Below are positions 3,293-35,621 of a stretch of 64,000 nt of DNA, piece by piece; position 1 is the stretch's first letter; every line of letters starts with the position of its first letter. The stretch is from Blastococcus saxobsidens DD2. Its GTDB lineage: Bacteria > Actinomycetota > Actinomycetes > Mycobacteriales > Geodermatophilaceae. The notes beneath the pieces were generated by a model. That model was not told where the DNA came from. It was given only the letters and a program-made list of their open reading frames with translations, and made no database searches. The DNA lies in assembly GCF_000284015.1 (NCBI RefSeq), contig NC_016943.1, positions 289,541 through 353,540 on the forward strand. Reading direction: 5' to 3'. The position numbers were made by a program, and so were the translations under genes.

Positions 3293-3380
3293 GGAGGGCT
3301 CGCCTAGTGGCCGATGGCGGCGGTCTTGAAAACCGCTAAGAGGTAACCCCTCTTCGTGGGTTCGAATCCCACGCCCTCCG
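3293..3380 (+). tRNA. tRNA-Ser (anticodon UGA)
   Basis: Acceptor arms 3293-3299 and 3373-3379 pair perfectly (GGAGGGC with GCCCTCC), with discriminator G at 3380. The anticodon stem is 3320-3324/3332-3336 and the anticodon TGA lies at 3327-3329. A long variable arm and the T-loop GTTCGAATC follow, which is the class II serine layout. CCA is not encoded. A degraded integrase lies directly downstream, so the 3' end of this tRNA is a likely attachment site. Confidence 0.96.
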
Positions 3381-3458
3381 CTCCTGACCAGCGGGTTCGC
3401 GCTGACCGAAGAGCTCCAGTCGACGGGCGTCCGGCGCCGCCACCCGGTCGCGTGCCCG

Positions 3459-25928: not shown

Positions 25929-26303
25929 TCACTCGCGGCCAGGCTCGCGACCCATGCCGAGGAAGTCGCGGAGCCACTGGTCGACGCGCCGCATGGTGTC
26001 GGCGCCCGCGGTCCCCGTGCGTCGCGTGATCCGAGTCGTCGAGATCGTCCGCGGCTGCTCGGTCATGGCGAAGCTCGGCTTGGAGAGGCCGGTGCGGTCA
26101 CCCTCGACGAGCACGTGGTGGGGCCAACCTCGGTCCACTGACGTGATCGGGACGACGATCGCCAGATCGCGGACGCTGGCCAGGTAGTCCGTGCTGGACA
26201 CGACCACGGCGGGTCGGGTGCCACGCTGTTCCCGCCCCGCGGTCGGGTCGAAGTCGACCCAGATGATGGCGCCACGCGCGAGCGAGGAAGCCGTGTCCGT
26301 CAC
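25929..26303 (-). CDS. Type II toxin, MazF/PemK family
   Basis: 124 residues from GTG 26303. Begins with the MazF hallmark RGAIIWVDFDP, then REQRGTRPAVVVSS, VPITSV, and TEQPRTIS, so the mRNA-cutting fold is complete. The start overlaps the antitoxin stop (GTGA). It should be an endoribonuclease neutralised by the upstream ribbon-helix-helix protein. It is the first of five toxin-antitoxin modules around the formate dehydrogenase genes. Confidence 0.93.
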   Translation of the reverse strand: MTDTASSLARGAIIWVDFDPTAGREQRGTRPAVVVSSTDYLASVRDLAIVVPITSVDRGWPHHVLVEGDRTGLSKPSFAMTEQPRTISTTRITRRTGTAGADTMRRVDQWLRDFLGMGREPGRE

Positions 26304-26533
26304 GGGTGGAGACCGTCGTCAGCCAACGAGTCCCATGCCTCGGTCTCCTCGCGGTAGGACGCGTCCGTGCTCGCGTAGGCCTCGCGGACGGCCTCGAACC
26401 GCGCCCGCCGGTCTGCCTCGTCGAGGAGTTCGGCGATCACTTCGGCGGCGGTCATCCGTTGCCGACCTGCCCGTGCGGCGATGCGTTCGCGCAGGCTCCG
26501 CGGCACCTTGATGGTGGTAACCGTGTCAGGCAT
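26300..26533 (-). CDS. Ribbon-helix-helix antitoxin (MazE partner)
   Basis: 77 residues from ATG 26533. N-terminal ribbon-helix-helix (TTIKVPRSLRERIAARAG, TAAEVIAELLDEAD) for DNA binding and an acidic C-terminal tail (ASYREETEAWDSLADDG) that would bind the toxin. TATCCT lies seven bases upstream of the ATG without a ribosome site, so the operon mRNA is probably leaderless. It is divergent from the formate dehydrogenase alpha gene, with about 178 bp between. Confidence 0.9.
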   Translation of the reverse strand: MPDTVTTIKVPRSLRERIAARAGRQRMTAAEVIAELLDEADRRARFEAVREAYASTDASYREETEAWDSLADDGLHP

Positions 26534-26711
26534 ACTGACGAGGATACCCACGAATCTTCCGGAGCGAAGTCTGACGCCTCGGTGGAGCGACCCGAAGGCC
26601 GCCCCATGGGTCGCCGACGGTGCGCCCCTCGAGGGAGCCGGTCCCCCGTCGGACGGACACGATCCGATTGTGGGCTCGGCCGGCGCGCCACCGCGGGAGC
26701 CTGATGGCAGA

Positions 26712-29700
26712 GTGACGCGGGTGAAGACCTGGCTCGAGAGCTGGCCGGTGTACCGGCAGCTGACTGGTTCGGACCCGCTGGGGCGCGGCAAGGCCGCGCG
26801 CAGCAAGGCGACCGAGGCGGTGGTGTCGCGCACGGCGACCGCTGACCGCGTGGTGAAGAGCGTCTGCCCGTTCTGCGCGGTGGGTTGCGCGCAGAACGTC
26901 TACGTGAAGGACGAGCAGATCGTCCAGATCGAGGGCAACCCCGATTCGCCGGTCAACCGCGGCCGGCTCTGCCCCAAGGGCAGCGCCAGCAAGCAGCTGG
27001 TCACCAGCCCGAGCCGGGTGACCACGGTCAAGTACCGCCGTCCCTACGGGACGGACTGGGAGGACCTGGACCTCGACACGGCCATGGAGATGATCGCCGA
27101 CCGCGTGCTCGACGCCCGCCGCAAGACCTGGCAGGACGAGGACGGACCAGCGGACAACCGGCGCCGGGTCAACAGAACGATGGGGATAGCGAGCCTCGGA
27201 GGGGCGACCCTCGACAACGAGGAGAACTACCTCATGAAGAAGCTCTACAGCGCCATGGGCGCGATCCAGATCGAGAACCAGGCGCGCATATAGCACTCGT
27301 CGACGGTGCCCGGTCTGGGTGCCTCGTTCGGTCGTGGCGGTGCCACGAACACTCAGCAGGACCTCGCGAACTCCGACTGCATCGTCATCGAGGGTTCGAA
27401 CATGGCCGAGTGCCACCCGGTGGGTTTCCAGTGGGTGACCGAGGCCAAGGCGCGCGGCGCGAAGGTCATCCACATCGATCCGCGCTTCACCCGCACCAGC
27501 GCGATCGCCGACCTGCACGTGCCGCTGCGCGCGGGCAGTGACATCGCGTTCCTCGGTGGGCTGATCAACCACGTGCTGAACAACGACCTGTACTTCAGGG
27601 AGTACGTCGTCGCGTACACGAATGCGGCGACGATCCTGCGCGAGGAGTTCCAGGACGCCGAGGACCTCGACGGCCTGTTCTCCGGCTACGACCCCGAGCA
27701 GCGCACGTACGACCAGGAGAGCTGGCAGTACGCGCCGGTCGAGTCGGGCGACGACGGCATCAACGAGGACCAGCCGGCCGAGGCGCAGCACCAGGACGAG
27801 CTCTCCCAGCAGGAGTCGGTCAAGCACGCCGACCAGGCGCAGGCCGCCGGCTCCGGTGGGCCGGCGCTGCACTCGAAGGGCCAGCGCGACGAGACCCTGC
27901 AGCACCCGCGCTCGGTGTTCCAGGTGCTCAAGCGGCACTACGCCCGCTACACGCCGGAGATGGTGGCCGAGACCTGCGGCATCGAGCCGGAGGTGTTCCT
28001 CGAGGTCGCCGAGTGGGTGACGGCGAACAGCAACCGCGAGCGGACGACGGCGTGGGTGTACTCGGTCGGCTGGACCCAGCACACCGTCGGCGCGCAGTAC
28101 ATCCGCACCGCCTCGATCCTGCAGGCGCTGCTCGGCAACATGGGGCGCCCCGGCGGCGGGATCCTGGCGCTGCGCGGGCACGCGAGCATCCAGGGCTCCA
28201 CCGACATCCCGACGCTGTTCAACATCCTGCCCGGCTACCTGCCGATGCCACACGCCGATCAGCACGACTCGCTGGACGAGTACGTGGCCGACGCCGAGGG
28301 GGCCGGCGGCTTCTGGGGCAACAAGCGTTCGTACATGGTGAGCCTGCTCAAGGCCTGGTGGGGTGATGCGGCGACGGCGGAGAACGACTTCGCCTTCGAT
28401 TACCTGCCGCGGATCAACGGCGACCACAGCTCCTACCGCACGATCAGCGACATGGTCGAGGGCAAGGTCCCCGGCTACTTCCTGGTGGGGGAGAACCCGA
28501 CGGTCGGGCACGCCAACGGGCGCATGCAGCGCTTCGGGCTGGCCAACCTCGAGTGGCTGGTCGTCCGCGACCTGCAGTTCATCGAGTCGGCCACCTTCTG
28601 GAAGGACGGGCCGGAGATCGAGACCGGCGAGCTGGTCACCGACCAGATCGCCACCGAGGTCTTCCTGATGCCCGCCGCGACGCACGTGGAGAAGGAGGGC
28701 ACCTTCACCCAGACGCAGCGGATGCTGCAGTGGCGGGACAAGGCGGTGGAGCCGCCGGGCGAGTGCCGCAGCGACCTGTGGTTCTTCTTCCACCTGGGCC
28801 GGATGCTGCGCGAGCGGCTGCAGGGCTCCACCGACCCGCGGGACCGTCCGCTGCTCGACCTCACCTGGGACTACCCGACCCACGGCGAGAAGGCCGAGCC
28901 GGACGCCGACGCCGTCCTCCGCGAGATCAACGGCTTCGGGCCGGACGGCGAGCTGCTGTCGACCTACATGCAGATGAAGGACGACGGCTCCACGAGTGGT
29001 GGCTGCTGGATCTACACCGGCGTCTACGCCGACGGGGTGAACCAGGCGCGGCGGCGGAAGCCGCACCACGAGCAGACCCCGGTGGCGCTGGAGTGGGGCT
29101 GGGCCTGGCCGCTGAACCGCCGCGTGCTCTACAACCGCGCCTCGGCCGACCCCGAGGGCAAGCCGTGGAGCGAGCGCAAGAAGTACGTGTGGTGGGACGC
29201 CGACGCGGGTCGCTGGACCGGTGAGGACGTCCCCGACTTCGAGGCGACCAAGCGACCGGACTACGTGCCGCCGCCCGGCGCGAAGGCGCAGGACGCGATC
29301 GGCGGCGCCGACCCGTTCGTGATGCAGAGCGACGGCAAGGCGTGGCTGTACGCGCCCAAGGGCCTGATGGACGGGCCGCTGCCGACGCACTACGAGCCGG
29401 CCGAGTCGCCGATGGACAACCCGCTGTACTCCGTCCAGTCGAACCCGACCATGGAGGAGATCCGGGCGCCGTGGAACCGCGGAAACCCGCCGCGCAGCGA
29501 GGTCTTCCCGTACGCGTTCACCACCTACCGGCTGACCGAGCACCACACGGCCGGCGCAATGAGCCGCACGCTGCCCTACCTGGCCGAGCTCCAGCCGGAG
29601 TTCTTCGTCGAGGTGAGCCCCCAGCTGGCCGCCGAGCGCGGGCTGGACAACGGCGGCTGGGCGACGGTCGTCACCGGCCGGGCAGCGGTGGAGGCGCGGG

Positions 29701-30008
29701 TGCTGATCACCGAGCGGATCCGGCCGCTGAAGCTCAAGGACGGTCAGGTCATCCACCAGATCGGCATCCCGTACCACTGGGGTGAGCGCGGCATCTCGAC
29801 CGGCGACTCCGCCAACGACCTGCTGGGCGTGGTCATGGACGCGAACACGCACATCCAGGAGAGCAAGGCCGCCACCTGCGACATCCGGCCCGGCCGGCGT
29901 CCGCGGGGCCCGGCGATGGTGGAGTTCCTCGAGGGGTACCGACGTCGCGCGGGCATGGAGTCCGGCGCCGTCCCGGTGGGCGGACGGGCGCCGGTGGAGA
30001 CGGGATGA
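26712..30008 (+). CDS. fdhA: Formate dehydrogenase major (alpha) subunit; selenoprotein with in-frame UAG as the Sec codon
   Basis: 1098 residues if UAG at 27291-27293 is read through. Mo/W-bisMGD oxidoreductase oxidising formate to CO2. [4Fe-4S] cysteines Cys52, Cys55, Cys59 and Cys87 (CPFCAVGC, then RLCPKG). The sequence around residue 194 is NQARI-UAG-HSSTV, which aligns with NQARV-U-HAPTV of E. coli FdnG, so the amber codon is exactly at the catalytic selenocysteine. Homology continues unbroken for about 900 codons afterwards (FGRGGATNTQ, then IEGSNMAECHPVGF, to the C-terminal molybdopterin domain). A bSECIS-like hairpin follows at 27301-27326. No Tat signal is visible. Start GTG 26712 is uncertain (GTG 26721 possible). 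The beta and membrane subunits follow after an inserted MazEF module. Confidence 0.93.
27291..27293 (+). other. In-frame UAG at the catalytic selenocysteine position
   Basis: TAG codon 194 of the formate dehydrogenase alpha gene, in the place where homologues have UGA (Sec) or a Cys codon. Reading as selenocysteine would need a tRNA-Sec with CUA anticodon and SelB; such tRNAs have been reported for Geodermatophilus and Blastococcus. Neither gene is visible in this window. Confidence 0.9.
27301..27326 (+). promoter_or_regulatory. Bacterial SECIS-like hairpin
   Basis: Upper stem GGTGCCC (27305-27311) pairs with GGGTGCC (27317-27323), two of seven pairs being G-U. The apical loop is GGTCT (27312-27316). 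A lower stem CGA/TCG (27301-27303 with 27324-27326) is separated by one bulged C at 27304. Eleven nucleotides lie between the UAG and the upper stem, as between UGA and the upper stem in E. coli fdhF, and the GGUCU loop is the one bound by SelB there. Confidence 0.85.
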
Positions 30009-30010
30009 GG

Positions 30011-30355
30011 TCAGAGGCCCAGGACGAAACGCAACCCATCGTCGACCTGTTGCATGACGGCCAGGGGCAGGAGACCGATGGCCGGCTCGATAAAGGCCTT
30101 GTCCACGGCCACCAGCGCGGTCACGTTGATCACCGACGTGCGGGGAAGTCCGCTGTCGTGCGGCTCGATGACGACGTTGCCCGGCACGGCACCGAGCCGC
30201 TCATTCCCGGTCACGATGGCCGCAAGAACGGTCGCCAGGCGGCTCTCGGTGTAGCGATCGATCTGAATGACGACGATCGGCCGTCGCCAGCCGGGTTCGC
30301 TACGCCGAGGTTCGCCGAGGTCTGCCCAGTGGATGCTGCCTCGCTGGATCACCAC
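30011..30355 (-). CDS. Type II toxin, MazF/PemK-like
   Basis: 114 residues from GTG 30355 (GTG 30352 possible). RGSIHWADLGEPRRSEPGWRRPIVVIQ is the MazF N-terminal barrel, with LPRTSVINVTALVAVDK in the usual place of the second conserved block. Its stop is only 2 bp from the fdhA stop and it reads antisense between fdhA and fdhB. Start overlaps the antitoxin stop. Probably an mRNA interferase; if inactive it would still interrupt the fdh operon. Confidence 0.88.
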   Translation of the reverse strand: MVIQRGSIHWADLGEPRRSEPGWRRPIVVIQIDRYTESRLATVLAAIVTGNERLGAVPGNVVIEPHDSGLPRTSVINVTALVAVDKAFIEPAIGLLPLAVMQQVDDGLRFVLGL

Positions 30356-30597: not shown

Positions 30598-30642
30598 GAC
30601 CACGAGTATGACCGGGTATAACTCGATGGGCAAGGTGTGCGC

Positions 30643-31704
30643 GTGACCCAGATCAGCTCAGCCAGTCCGGCCCTGACCGGCAACGATCCGAAGAACCGGC
30701 TGTTCGGGCCGCTGCCCGACGTGTCGGCGGAGGCCGGTTACGTGGAGGAGCACCCCAAGCGGGTCGGCTTCTTCACCGACACCTCGGTCTGCATCGGCTG
30801 CAAGGCCTGCGAGGTCGCCTGCAAGGAGTGGAACACGCTCCCGATGGACGACTCGCACGGCGAGCGGGACGCGCTCGGGCTGTCGGGGATGTCCTACGAC
30901 AACACCGGCATGCTGGGCGCGAACTCGTGGCGGCACGTGGCCTTCATCGAGCAGTCGCGCACCGTCGACCTGCCGATGCCCGGCGTGGGGCTGCCCGGGG
31001 CGGCGGCGCGGCAGGACACCGTCGCGCCCGACCTCAGCAGGCCGAACAGCCTGGCGGACGCGCAGCAGTCCAGCGTGCTCAACGCCGAGGCGCTCACCGA
31101 GTTCGACCCGCAGACCACTCAGTCCGGTGACCGCGAGGTCCGCTGGCTGATGAGCTCCGACGTGTGCAAGCACTGCACGCACGCCGGCTGCCTCGACGTC
31201 TGCCCGACCGGTGCGCTGTTCCGCACCGAGTTCGGCACCGTGGTCGTGCAGCAGGACATCTGCAACGGCTGCGGCTACTGCGTGCCGGCCTGCCCGTACG
31301 GCGTCATCGACCAGCGCAAGGACGACGGCCGGGTCTTCAAGTGCACGATGTGCTACGACCGGCTCACCGACGGGCTGCAGCCGGCGTGCGCCACCGCGTG
31401 CCCCACGCAGTCGATCCAGTTCGGCGACCTCGACGAGCTGCAGGCCCGGGCCGACGCCCGGCTGGCGACGCTCCGGGAGCAGGGCGTGGAGACCGCCCGG
31501 CTGTACGGGCGCGACGAGAACGACGGCGTCGGCGGGGCGGGGGCGTTCTTCCTGCTGCTCGACGAGCCGGAGGTCTACGGCCTGCCGCCGGACCCGATCG
31601 TCACCACGCGCGACCTGCCGGCCATGTGGAAGGCGGCCGCCACGGGCGCGGCGATGATCATCGGGATCGCGGCCACGGCCGTGTTCGGCTCGCGGAGGAA
31701 CTGA
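30643..31704 (+). CDS. fdhB: Formate dehydrogenase beta subunit, four [4Fe-4S] clusters
   Basis: 353 residues from GTG 30643 (AAGG 5-8 nt upstream; GTG 30637 possible). Four ferredoxin cysteine groups are visible: CIGCKACEVACKEW, CKHCTHAGCLDVCP, CNGCGYCVPACPYG, and CTMCYDRLTDGLQPACATAC. Together they carry electrons from the alpha subunit to the membrane. A C-terminal hydrophobic helix (MIIGIAATAVFG) anchors it. It stands 634 bp after fdhA because of the inserted MazEF module, and 2 bp before the membrane subunit. Confidence 0.95.
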   Translation: MTQISSASPALTGNDPKNRLFGPLPDVSAEAGYVEEHPKRVGFFTDTSVCIGCKACEVACKEWNTLPMDDSHGERDALGLSGMSYDNTGMLGANSWRHVAFIEQSRTVDLPMPGVGLPGAAARQDTVAPDLSRPNSLADAQQSSVLNAEALTEFDPQTTQSGDREVRWLMSSDVCKHCTHAGCLDVCPTGALFRTEFGTVVVQQDICNGCGYCVPACPYGVIDQRKDDGRVFKCTMCYDRLTDGLQPACATACPTQSIQFGDLDELQARADARLATLREQGVETARLYGRDENDGVGGAGAFFLLLDEPEVYGLPPDPIVTTRDLPAMWKAAATGAAMIIGIAATAVFGSRRN

Positions 31705-31706
31705 GC

Positions 31707-32768
31707 ATGACGGAAGGCATCGCGACGCCCGGGGCCGGCTGGCGCCGCGCCGACGGCTGGGTCGGGAAGAAGAAGGACGGCGGCGGCAAGCGCCGGCGCA
31801 GCGGCCGCCGGGCGGTCGGCGAGGTCGCGATGGTGGACGACGCGGAGTTCACCTCGTACTACGGCCGGCCGATCATCAAGCCGCCGGTGTGGAAGACCCC
31901 GGACGTGCCGCTGTACCTGTTCCTCGGGGGCGCGGCGGGCTCGTCGTCGATCCTGGCGGCGTTCGCCGACCTGACCGACCGGCCGACGCTGACCCGGGTG
32001 GGCCGGCTGGTGGCCGGTGGCGCGTCGGTCGCGTCGGTGGGCTGGCTGATCCACGACCTGGGCCGGCCGGAACGGTTCCTGCACATGCTGCGGGTGCTGA
32101 AGCCGACGTCGCCGCTGTCGGTGGGCACCTACATCCTGTCGCCGTTCAGCGCCGCGACCGGCGCGACGGCCGCGGTCGAGCTGCTGGGCTGGTTCCCGCG
32201 GCTCAAGCGGTTCGGCGGCGCCGTGGGGGCCCTGTTCGGCGGGCCGATGGCCACCTACACCGCGGTGCTGCTCAGCAACACCGCCGTGCCGTCGTGGCAC
32301 GAGGCGCACGAGCAGCTGCCGTTCGTCTTCGGCGGATCGGCGATGGCGGCCGGCGGCGGGCTGACCATGCTCTTCACGCCGGTGGACGAGGCGGGGCCGT
32401 CGCGGAAGATGGCGATCGCCGGTGCGGTGATCGAGCTGGCCGCGATGCACAAGGTGGAGAACGACCACGGGATCGTGAGCGAGCCGTACCACGAGGGCCG
32501 GGCCGGGACGCTGATGCGGGCGGCGAAGACGTGCACCGCTGCGGGTGCGGGGCTGACCGCGATCGCCGGGCGCACCCGGGTCGGCGCCATCGCGTCCGGG
32601 ACGTTGCTGGCGGCCGGGTCGCTGCTCACCCGGTTCGGGGTGTTCGAGGCCGGCCTGGCCAGTGCTCGCGATCCGAAGTACACCGTCGTCCCGCAGCGGG
32701 AGCGGATGGCCGCCCGCGAGGCGGCCAGGGCCCTCGGCGAGGGAGAGGCCCGCTCGGCCACCCGCTGA
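31707..32768 (+). CDS. NrfD/PsrC-like membrane subunit of formate dehydrogenase
   Basis: 353 residues. Long basic cytoplasmic N-terminus (about 50 residues, KKKDGGGKRRRSGRRA), then about eight membrane segments (LYLFLGGAAGSSSILAAFAD, WLIHDLGRPERFLHML and others), typical of NrfD/PsrC quinone-binding subunits that replace the cytochrome b gamma subunit. It would pass electrons from the beta subunit to menaquinone. Start ATG 31707 lies 2 bp after fdhB. Confidence 0.9.
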   Translation: MTEGIATPGAGWRRADGWVGKKKDGGGKRRRSGRRAVGEVAMVDDAEFTSYYGRPIIKPPVWKTPDVPLYLFLGGAAGSSSILAAFADLTDRPTLTRVGRLVAGGASVASVGWLIHDLGRPERFLHMLRVLKPTSPLSVGTYILSPFSAATGATAAVELLGWFPRLKRFGGAVGALFGGPMATYTAVLLSNTAVPSWHEAHEQLPFVFGGSAMAAGGGLTMLFTPVDEAGPSRKMAIAGAVIELAAMHKVENDHGIVSEPYHEGRAGTLMRAAKTCTAAGAGLTAIAGRTRVGAIASGTLLAAGSLLTRFGVFEAGLASARDPKYTVVPQRERMAAREAARALGEGEARSATR

Positions 32769-33111: not shown

Positions 33112-33522
33112 TCAGGCAGGATCCGCCGGATCGAGGGCCGGGGTGACATCGGTCGCCGAGAAGTCGGTGCCCGTGAAGAGCAGTGGTTCGCCCGTGGCGC
33201 GGGCCAGCGCGTAGCTGAAGCAGTCGCCGAAGTTCAGGCGGGCGGCGTGGCCGCTGCCCTTGCCGAAGTCGCGATAGGCCCGGCGGGCGATGTCCGCATG
33301 CGACCGCGTGACCGGTTCGACGGTGATGGGCACCGCGGCCACGAGGTCGTCGAAGCGGCCACTGAGCACCGGGTCACGGTTGGCGTCCACCACGACAGCG
33401 GTCTCCAGGTAGGTCGCCGCCGAGGTGCGAGCCTCGTCCGCGGTGGCCAGTGCCTGGATGTAGCGGTCGGCGTCCGGTTCTCCGCGCAGGATCGCGACGA
33501 CAGCGGACGTGTCGACGATCAT
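33112..33522 (-). CDS. PIN-domain ribonuclease toxin (VapC)
   Basis: 136 residues. MIVDTSAVVAILRGEPDAD carries the first acidic residue; Glu in TYLETAVVVD and Asp in LNFGDCFSYALA complete the PIN metal site, followed by LLFTGTDFSATD. Such toxins cut tRNA or rRNA. Its ATG overlaps the antitoxin stop. Start ATG 33522 was chosen since the family starts right at this MIVDTS strand. Confidence 0.93.
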   Translation of the reverse strand: MIVDTSAVVAILRGEPDADRYIQALATADEARTSAATYLETAVVVDANRDPVLSGRFDDLVAAVPITVEPVTRSHADIARRAYRDFGKGSGHAARLNFGDCFSYALARATGEPLLFTGTDFSATDVTPALDPADPA

Positions 33523-33782
33523 CGGGGCAGGCCGGTCTCGTCGTAGAGCAGGTCGCCGTGGTCGCTGCTGCGATAGGGCTCGACCCACCGATCGGCTGCA
33601 TCCCCGGCAATCCTCTGGAGCAGGGCGGTGCGGTCGGCCGCCGCGGCGGTGCCCCGGCGTTGAATCCGATCGAGACGTTCGCGCACCGCCACGGTGATGG
33701 CCCGCGTGAGGTTCTCGCCGGTTGCGTCGGCGAGTTGGCGGGCGAGCTCCTCGGTTTCCGGGTTCTTGATGTTGAGGCCCAT
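33519..33782 (-). CDS. VapB-type antitoxin
   Basis: 87 residues. MGLNIKNPETEELARQLADA is the N-terminus of the PSK/VapB antitoxin family, followed by ENLTRAITVAVRERLDR. The C-terminal tail (WVEPYRSSDHGDLLYDETGL) would block VapC. TAGAGT six bases before the ATG suggests leaderless transcription, and an inverted repeat at 33783-33809 overlaps that -10 box, fitting autorepression by the complex. Confidence 0.92.
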   Translation of the reverse strand: MGLNIKNPETEELARQLADATGENLTRAITVAVRERLDRIQRRGTAAAADRTALLQRIAGDAADRWVEPYRSSDHGDLLYDETGLPR

Positions 33783-33809
33783 GGTAGAACTCTATCCGAG
33801 TGATCTACC
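33783..33809. promoter_or_regulatory. Candidate VapBC operator overlapping the -10 box
   Basis: GGTAGA (33783-33788) and TCTACC (33804-33809) are inverted repeats around the reverse-strand -10 box TAGAGT (33789-33794) of the vapB gene starting at 33782. Confidence 0.55.
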
Positions 33810-33929
33810 CTTCTGCATGTCGCCAAGCCGTCCCGGAGTGACCGGCCCGGTGGCCGACGGACGCGACGCGCTGCATGTCGGTCCCGGAGGGTCGCGGATG
33901 GCCTTCGGGACGACGATGCGGCCGAGGCT

Positions 33930-34331
33930 TCAGCCGCCACCGTCGAGCAGCATCGCGACGTCATCGTGGAGCGCTGCTAGGGCGCGGTCGAAGGTGGCCA
34001 GTCGACCGCCTCGCGAGCGGGTCAGCCCGGCCAGGTAGGCGTCGGTCACCTGTCGGTGCCCGACCACCCCGCGCATGTCGATGACGTCGTAGCCGAGTTC
34101 GTCGGGCCAGAACTCATGCCCATCCGCCGCTCGCAGGGCGCGCACCACATCGAGGGCCTGCCGCGCGGTCGCCCCGCCGCGGAGCAGGAATCGGGCGAGT
34201 GCCCCCTGGGTCACGGGGCAGGTCGCGAAGGGCTCCGATCGCTGCGTGAACCAGGCCTCCGTGAGGTCGTGGTGGACGTGGTCGGCGACGGTGAGTGCGG
34301 TGAGTGCGTTCGCGTCGAGCAGGACCGTCAT
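33930..34331 (-). CDS. PIN-domain toxin (VapC), second module
   Basis: 133 residues. MTVLLDANALTALTVADHVH with Asp6, FDR/DD acidic residues near the end (RLATFDRALAALHDDVAML), and a middle ILE/ALARFL block: a VapC-like PIN toxin of the TIGR00028 style. The start overlaps the antitoxin stop (ATGA). Not closely similar to the other two PIN toxins nearby, so this is not a recent duplication. Confidence 0.9.
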   Translation of the reverse strand: MTVLLDANALTALTVADHVHHDLTEAWFTQRSEPFATCPVTQGALARFLLRGGATARQALDVVRALRAADGHEFWPDELGYDVIDMRGVVGHRQVTDAYLAGLTRSRGGRLATFDRALAALHDDVAMLLDGGG

Positions 34332-34555
34332 TCGTCGTCGTCCAGCGAGCGCACCTCGTCGCTGGTGACCACTCGGCCGAGCGAGGCGACCTGCAAGCCG
34401 GTGCGGCGGCTCGTGCTGACCTTGACCGGTCCGGGTGCAGCCAGGGCGGCGCGGAGCAGCCGGGTGACCGTGTCGCTCAACGAGCTGTTGGAGTCGCGAG
34501 CAATGGCGGCTGCCACCCGGTGGATGTCCTCCGGGAGGTCGATGGTGGTACGCAC
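34328..34555 (-). CDS. Ribbon-helix-helix antitoxin (VapB-like), second module
   Basis: 75 residues from GTG 34555 (GTG 34561 possible). RTTIDLPEDIHRVAAAIARD and SLSDTVTRLLRAAL form the ribbon-helix-helix; the rest is an acidic toxin-binding tail (SDEVRSLDDDE). TACGCT lies six bases before GTG 34555 with no ribosome site. An 8-bp inverted repeat at 34573-34602 sits just upstream of the promoter. Confidence 0.88.
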   Translation of the reverse strand: MRTTIDLPEDIHRVAAAIARDSNSSLSDTVTRLLRAALAAPGPVKVSTSRRTGLQVASLGRVVTSDEVRSLDDDE

Positions 34556-34572
34556 CGCCACAGCGTAGCGTC

Positions 34573-34602
34573 GTGATGCAATCCGCGGACCATATGCATC
34601 AC
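34573..34602. promoter_or_regulatory. Candidate operator of VapBC module 2
   Basis: GTGATGCA (34573-34580) and TGCATCAC (34595-34602) form a perfect 8-bp inverted repeat with a 14-bp spacer, immediately upstream of the antitoxin promoter. Confidence 0.5.
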
Positions 34603-34687
34603 TGTGCTCACCAAGTTGTGGGCGGCCGGCGCCGAGTGGGCGATGGAGGAGACAGCGCCCACCCCTGTGCGGACGGCCGGTCACCGG

Positions 34688-34707
34688 ATGCCGCACGAGT
34701 GCGGCAT
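34688..34707. repeat. Perfect 9-bp inverted repeat
   Basis: ATGCCGCAC (34688-34696), GA, GTGCGGCAT (34699-34707). It is too compact for a normal terminator loop and looks more like a protein-binding dyad; the adjacent divergent genes are the vapB-like antitoxin and the second small membrane protein. Confidence 0.5.
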
Positions 34708-34773
34708 CGGGCGTGGTGGCGGTATGCGTCGAGGGACCATGTGCGCGGTCGGTTGCCCGGGCAGTCGCGTACA

Positions 34774-34822
34774 CGGCGGGACGTCGGCGGTCGCCACCCG
34801 GTGGTGTCGCGGCGCGGCGGGC
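34774..34822. repeat. 49-bp palindromic repeat, copy A
   Basis: Matches copy B (36002-36050) at 43 of 49 positions by eye, including a 35-nt block with one difference. Its terminal arm is degraded compared with copy B. Intergenic. Confidence 0.75.
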
Positions 34823-34946
34823 TTCCCCCCGGCTGCACCTCGGACCGGCCGTGCTCACGTCGGTGGTCGGAGCCTTGCCGGGTGTGACCCGCTCGTCGCG
34901 GGTAGCCGCCCGGAGGACCGGCCGGCGCAGCCCGTGAGGAGGAGGT

Positions 34947-35150
34947 GTGGAGACCATCGTCTTCCTGGTGCCGGCGCTGCTCGTGGTCGTCCTCGGCTAC
35001 TCCGTCGGGTACGCGGTGTGGGAGGCGGCCGGACTCCCGGGTGATCCGGAGGTGGCCGGCTGGACCGCCGGTGTCGTTCTCCTCGCCGTCCTGACGTGGC
35101 TGCTGGTGTCCTGGCGTCGCCGGGTCCGGCGGCGGGGAAGGCGAGGCTGA
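34947..35150 (+). CDS. Small two-helix membrane protein (paralogue 2)
   Basis: 67 residues from GTG 34947, with AGGAGGAGG immediately upstream. Same layout and length as the protein at 32883: helix VFLVPALLVVVLGYSVGYAV, loop WEAAGLPGDPEVAGW, helix VVLLAVLTWLLVSW, Arg-rich tail. The shared loop and tail show the two genes arose by duplication. Function unknown. It lies between two VapBC modules, without an enzyme partner. Confidence 0.75.
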   Translation: METIVFLVPALLVVVLGYSVGYAVWEAAGLPGDPEVAGWTAGVVLLAVLTWLLVSWRRRVRRRGRRG

Positions 35151-35219
35151 GCGGCGGACGGTGGGCACAGGATGCGATCACCTCCGGCGCGGCTGGTCAC
35201 CGGGCCCGGCTCGACCGCC

Positions 35220-35621
35220 TCAGCTGGTCGACGCCAGCACGTCGATCCCTTCGTCGCGGGCCGCGGCCGCCAACCGTTCGTCGTAGGTGACCAGCTGCGT
35301 GGCGCGGATGCCGATGGCGGACGCCAGATGGATGGCGTCGAGCGAGCGCAGTGTGGCCGGGCCGATGGTCCTGGCCCGGTCGAGGACGACGGGTCGCAGC
35401 GGAAACTCGTCGATGCCCGAGAGCGCGGCTTCGGTCAGCCGGTCGAGGTCGGGAACGTCGGCACGGCGCAGAGCGCGTTCCACCTCCACCCAGGTGAGTG
35501 CCGAGGAGGTGAGCAGATCGACGGCGGCCGCCGACCGGCTGAGCAGTTCCCGTACGGCTGCCGACTCCGGCTCGATGATGACCCGCTTGAGCAGCGCACT
35601 GGTGTCGAGGTAGACGATCAA
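35220..35621 (-). CDS. PIN-domain toxin (VapC), third module
   Basis: 133 residues. MIVYLDTSALLKRVIIEPES carries Asp6; the Glu in WVEVERAL, the Asp in LRSLDAIHLASAI and the Asp in LVTYDERLAAAA complete the PIN active site. A well-conserved VapC. The start overlaps the antitoxin stop by 4 nt. Confidence 0.94.
   Translation of the reverse strand: MIVYLDTSALLKRVIIEPESAAVRELLSRSAAAVDLLTSSALTWVEVERALRRADVPDLDRLTEAALSGIDEFPLRPVVLDRARTIGPATLRSLDAIHLASAIGIRATQLVTYDERLAAAARDEGIDVLASTS

Follow-up and report, generated by a model that had tools for sequence, protein, structure and literature searches.

UAG as the selenocysteine codon of a formate dehydrogenase gene in Blastococcus saxobsidens DD2, its distribution in the Geodermatophilaceae, and a genome with two tRNA-Sec genes

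The reading of UAG as selenocysteine has been in print since 2016. Mukai et al. reportedly used labelling or mass spectrometry in that year for Geodermatophilus and Blastococcus. Three Geodermatophilaceae genomes are described in PMC5330540 (citing Mukai et al. 2016) as carrying tRNA-Sec(CUA), UAG formate dehydrogenases and selenoproteins with the UGSC motif, in agreement with the initial annotation of the present locus, which had named a 2016 report for Geodermatophilus and Blastococcus. For B. saxobsidens DD2 the same text adds an AhpC with UAG, and UAG selenocysteine in Blastococcus is also named in PMC5133445. An amber nonsense suppressor tRNA is reported in three Blastococcus strains (PMC9686282), and this is probably the CUA tRNA-Sec. 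One record in our collection (L060) belongs by name to B. haudaquaticus DSM 44270, one of those strains. The find presented here is real, but with the variant in print since 2016 it is not new and its interest is modest.

The window is the whole stretch of 64,000 nucleotides that was analysed. It contains the following features of a formate dehydrogenase locus, identified from profile matches, alignments and the reading frame.

26721 to 30008, forward strand: fdhA, formate dehydrogenase alpha subunit with selenocysteine and one in-frame UAG (NF041513 match with read-through, alignments to 1kqf and 1h0h, frame)
27291 to 27293, forward strand: UAG selenocysteine codon of fdhA (letters, frame, alignment, same codon in relatives)
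27305 to 27323, forward strand: SECIS hairpin GGUGCCC-GGUCU-GGGUGCC, seven pairs, loop 27312-27316 (pair counts over 70 distinct sequences)
30637 to 31704, forward strand: probable fdhB, the enzyme's iron-sulfur subunit, with an uncertain start (TIGR01582 FDH-beta, Fer4_11)
31674 to 32768, forward strand: probable NrfD-type membrane subunit, with an uncertain start (PF03916 NrfD, 40.4 bits, cut-off 25.8)

The letters at 27291-27293 are TAG in the fdhA frame, the position at which an ORF in the mechanical list (26481-27293) terminates, and no other stop occurs in that frame between the TAG ending at 27293 and TGA at 30006-30008. The single in-frame TAG noted in the initial annotation is thus present in an otherwise open frame. 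The start is likely GTG 26721, from which the gene comprises 1096 codons with the final stop counted, rather than the 1098 first given. The homology said to continue beyond the TAG is indeed extensive: NF041513, a model of actinobacterial formate dehydrogenase, scores 336 bits ahead of the codon and 1584 bits behind it, and with the UAG read through it matches over its full length with 1948 bits against a cut-off of 1400. In phmmer alignments the UAG residue falls opposite X, the selenocysteine position, of both Escherichia coli FdnG (1kqf) and 1h0h, bearing out its assignment to the selenocysteine site of FdnG-type enzymes. The context NQARI-U-HSSTV compares with NQARV-X-HGPTV in 1kqf and HQARI-X-HSATV in 1h0h; HAPTV, quoted earlier for FdnG, was a slight error.

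The probable fdhB matches TIGR01582 with 182 bits, under the cut-off of 334.7, and Fer4_11 with 88.1 bits. Genes for PemK/MazF-like toxins (Pfam PF02452) lie on both sides of fdhA on the reverse strand, at 25929-26303 and at 30011-30355, the latter placed between fdhA and fdhB and opposite to them in strand. Small ORFs within 33112-35621 are, by eye, candidate PIN toxins. A crude estimate of stop usage in the window, from 27 picked frames, gives 20 TGA, six TAG, one of which is the fdhA selenocysteine codon, and one TAA.

The hairpin begins 11 nt behind the UAG and its loop 18 nt behind, within the range of 16-37 nt quoted in PMC10778597. Pair counts were made on 121 loci representing 70 distinct sequences (56 TAG, 14 TGA), with loci L171 and L172 of genome G079 left out. 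Over these 70 sequences the seven pairs form in 98.6% of pair cells, as against 30-62% for slid partners. Three of the seven are invariant and uninformative, and the outermost is broken in six of the 70. The one freely varying pair, which joins the wobble positions of a valine and a glycine codon, occurs as five pair types and holds in all 70 sequences, a count to be set against at most 45 in 2000 shuffles; the shuffles ignore kinship and overstate the case, the changes however being at silent sites. Sixty-nine of the 70 share the loop GGTCT. When the single sequence is folded the hairpin appears, with a stability equal to that of shuffled sequences (z -0.04). The Rfam SECIS_1 model has no match in this genome and none in 14 control genomes either, so that result says little. 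All 14 UGA relatives outside the Geodermatophilaceae carry the same hairpin, and since it is common to the UGA and UAG versions it is mainly codon and anticodon that have changed.

The genome is a single contig (C1) of 4,875,340 bases. Outside the window, at about C1:1521746-1526402, it carries selD, tRNA-Sec(CUA), selA and selB, so that the tRNA and the three sel genes that the proposed reading called for are present and adjoining. The tRNA gene is 96 nt long with anticodon CUA, an encoded CCA end and a G before it, sits between selD and selA and scores 65.3 bits with the Rfam tRNA-Sec model (cut-off 47), the top score in this genome. The products of selA (418 bits), selB (280.8 bits, the match covering model positions 1-341 of 581 only) and selD are all above curated cut-offs. 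The other five matches to the tRNA-Sec model are three tRNA-Ser, one tRNA-Tyr and one tRNA-Leu; none has the anticodon UCA, and there is no second tRNA-Sec among them. We caution that this model is unspecific, with matches in all 14 control genomes, above cut-off in five of them, and that it also scores tRNA-Ser, one of which lies in the window (3293-3381, 49.7 bits, above cut-off). The call therefore rests on score, anticodon and neighbours jointly. At gathering scores, Rfam models identify only that tRNA-Ser across the window.

Four further genes in the genome carry a UAG within a selenocysteine motif:

C1:2909259-2912543: second fdhA, with TAG and hairpin
C1:130325-130606: AhpC-like gene, GDW-U-PYC at the UAG
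C1:2694250 and C1:3436124: two UGSC genes, U being the first letter of UGSC

Each of the four can form a stem of 7 or 8 pairs at 11-14 nt behind its UAG, judged on pairing alone, and in one UGSC gene there are competing pairings against the stem. Only the fdhA, AhpC-like and UGSC families were searched and the count is a minimum.

A survey of 112 family genomes places the locus in context. CUA tRNA-Sec is found in 101 genomes, UCA only in seven (G066, G068, G069, G070, G072, G073 and G074, from three genera, with assemblies of 190-550 contigs) and no readable tRNA-Sec in four (G067, G071, G097 and G098, which are 72-82% complete, G067 and G098 giving weak matches only). Among the 101, one genome (G058) has both CUA and UCA genes and another (G036) has the CUA tRNA twice. 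The anticodon arm reads GGCCTCTAAAGCC in all 102 CUA tRNA genes read and GGTCTTCAAAACC in all eight UCA genes read; the two differ in the last stem pair, U-A versus C-G, and in two anticodon bases. The switch may have passed through an anticodon UUA, able to read UAA and UAG. No UUA tRNA-Sec was seen among the tRNA-Sec genes read in the survey. Outside the family, an exact search for the CUA pattern, which may miss diverged tRNAs, returned two of 394 class genomes, both Blastococcus and the only family members in that listing.

Matches to fdhA occur in 100 of the 112 genomes, as 129 rows, 117 of which span the selenocysteine residue, and each of the 117 has exactly one stop, TAG. Direct reading of the codon, done for 41 of these rows and for 66 loci in a second, named collection, gives TAG every time; this collection overlaps the survey, such that the counts are not independent. 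The seven UCA-only genomes have no fdhA match at the survey threshold; the anticodon is seen there, the codon not. The best 80 of 440 relatives in the named collection divide into 66 TAG and 14 TGA loci, and the 14 outside the family (from Streptomyces, Amycolatopsis, Nocardioidaceae and other Actinomycetota) are all TGA. Two TAG records labelled as a Frankiales MAG (L033) and 'Bacillus sp. AZ43' (L057) fall within Geodermatophilaceae branches of the tree, and these labels look wrong or too coarse.

In a FastTree tree of 104 fdhA rows the distribution of TAG takes a minimum of two changes to explain. A single main clade holds 82 of the TAG rows. It does not include eight TAG copies found in family genomes (L163-L170), five of them adjoining four TGA rows with weak support of 82. 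These eight indicate that fdhA copies of differing descent carry the codon of the host genome. They may have arrived with UGA and then switched, or the four TGA rows may have reverted after leaving the family; the tree fits either. Two further copies, both in G079 (L171 on contig C12 and L172 on C4), are without the selenocysteine codon and hairpin stretch, at about residues 177-208 and 186-202. Both have a frame change at the gap, with an identical right-hand end, and the gap may go back to a deletion common to both or to an error in the assembly.

Seen directly in the sequence are the codon and its protein surroundings, the hairpin with its covariation, the CUA tRNA, selA, selB and selD and the family-wide TAG. 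We regard it as practically certain that the UAG at 27291 encodes selenocysteine, in keeping with the membership of the UAG code variant first suggested, to which the tRNA, the sel genes and the TAG of relatives lend support. How such a codon might be read can be sketched from the known bacterial pathway, on which our account of charging, delivery, competitor, the meaning of other UAGs and the finished enzyme is modelled. Seryl-tRNA synthetase would load serine onto tRNA-Sec(CUA), and SelA would convert the seryl- to selenocysteyl-tRNA using selenophosphate from SelD. SelB, bound to the SECIS hairpin with its loop 18 nt behind the codon, would then deliver tRNA-Sec(CUA) to the ribosome. The competitor at the codon would be release factor 1 and not release factor 2. 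A UAG without such a hairpin would still terminate proteins, which makes this a context-dependent recoding with no general reassignment of UAG.

Is the TAG an accident? Does it specify some other residue? Or is it mainly a regulated stop? A stop in mid-frame resembles a broken gene, and the G079 copies of fdhA are broken at this very stretch, as might be expected of a nonsense mutation or sequencing error in a gene that otherwise uses UGA or cysteine. Against this stand 107 loci from many species that have TAG at this residue and preserve the hairpin, the one TAG in 117 of 117 spanning family rows, and an apparently complete selenocysteine gene set with a matching anticodon. Such an origin is exceedingly improbable, and both pseudogene and sequencing error were ruled out as candidates by the TAG in relatives, which also answers the concern raised over a sequencing slip at 27291. 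That the codon specifies pyrrolysine, or an ordinary amino acid through a suppressor tRNA, is suggested by names: ARAGORN labels the CUA gene tRNA-Pyl, by its anticodon, and PMC9686282 describes an amber tRNA in three Blastococcus strains as a nonsense suppressor. The best PylS match in the genome is however 20 bits against a cut-off of 178.15, a threshold that one control genome passes. In addition the 96-nt tRNA has the genome's best tRNA-Sec score, with selD and selA as its neighbours on either side; the codon stands at the selenocysteine position, and UGA relatives have the same hairpin. We give this explanation next to no credence, and pyrrolysine itself was ruled out, PylS never exceeding its cut-off here.

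The remaining alternative is that the UAG acts mostly as a stop, yielding a 190-residue N-terminal fragment, with read-through rare or dependent on conditions such as selenium supply. Release factor 1 has to compete at any recoded UAG, which speaks for this reading. The frame behind the UAG, however, is 63-91% identical to relatives in the family survey, an indication that the long product is under selection. We consider a predominantly regulated stop improbable, and it would modify the selenocysteine reading rather than contradict it.

The genome with both tRNAs, G058, a Geodermatophilus, merits separate consideration. Its fdhA (L173) has TAG, and its CUA tRNA occurs with selA, selB and selD on contig C11. 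A second contig, C17 (69 kb), has a GC content of 69-82% nearly throughout, falling to 59-65% at 1 to 6 kb, and this low-GC stretch contains the following.

G058 contig C17, about 1169-2157: tRNA-Sec(UCA) and a UGA-interrupted AhpD-like gene (L100 / L161)

The tRNA-Sec(UCA) scores 81.8 bits, the top score of the survey. The gene is an ORF 0.3 kb away on the opposite strand, with an in-frame TGA in RCFY-U-MESH. Its protein matches TIGR01926, a peroxidase-related enzyme, with 112.6 bits (cut-off 81.8), and NF041238, which has CFYUT in its name, with 51.8 bits, below the cut-off of 175. TIGR01926 with CxxU is listed among selenoproteins in PMC13188914. Up to 7 pairs could form a stem 10 nt behind the TGA. 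There is no second selA, selB or selD on C17. Searches for a donor gave weak matches without stops in two of the 394 class genomes, plasmid matches all below 60% identity and no matches among viral contigs.

We suggest, tentatively and from sequence, that G058 may use two selenocysteine codons: the native UAG with tRNA-Sec(CUA), and UGA from a low-GC island with its own tRNA-Sec(UCA) and an AhpD-like CFY-U gene with a hairpin. A UGA selenoprotein would then have crossed the code barrier together with its tRNA, to be served by the SelA, SelB and SelD of the host. The island lies near the start of C17 beside what appear by eye to be transposase-like ORFs, and a misjoin is possible; the TGA could also simply terminate a gene that is no longer functional. 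A literature search, which reached its sources in part, found no report of a genome with CUA and UCA tRNA-Sec together, and this genome is the sole part of our results that may be new.

What do these observations contribute? They describe a natural case in which the selenocysteine codon has shifted between stop codons, in a family that displays stages: UCA-only genera, CUA genera, and fdhA copies of differing descent with the codon of the host genome. There is a practical aspect in that annotation splits UAG selenoprotein genes at the UAG, and tools or papers label the tRNA as pyrrolysine or suppressor. The family-wide survey is an extension of a known system; the two-tRNA genome is a lead worth following which, if true, would open the question of how one SelB copes with two different stop codons.

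Comparison with known systems serves to place the locus. Aeromonas salmonicida, as described in PMC5133445 and PMC10778597, also has a non-UGA selenocysteine codon with a matching tRNA, but that codon, UGU, is a sense codon whereas here it is a stop codon. The pyrrolysine system shares the UAG codon and the CUA anticodon; here by contrast no PylS is above cut-off, and tRNA, neighbours and protein site are of selenocysteine type. Bacterial UGA selenocysteine, of the E. coli fdnG/fdhF type, has the same selA, selB, selC and selD, the hairpin directly behind the codon and the catalytic position, and differs in that UAG and CUA here replace UGA and UCA, presumably with release factor 1 as competitor. 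Closest is the published UAG system of the Geodermatophilaceae, which has the same CUA anticodon, UAG formate dehydrogenases, UGSC proteins and AhpC, belongs to the same bacterial family and was probably described from this very strain, B. saxobsidens DD2, among others. There is no difference in kind, and the count now stands at 101 of 112 genomes, with seven that are UCA-only and one that has both tRNAs.
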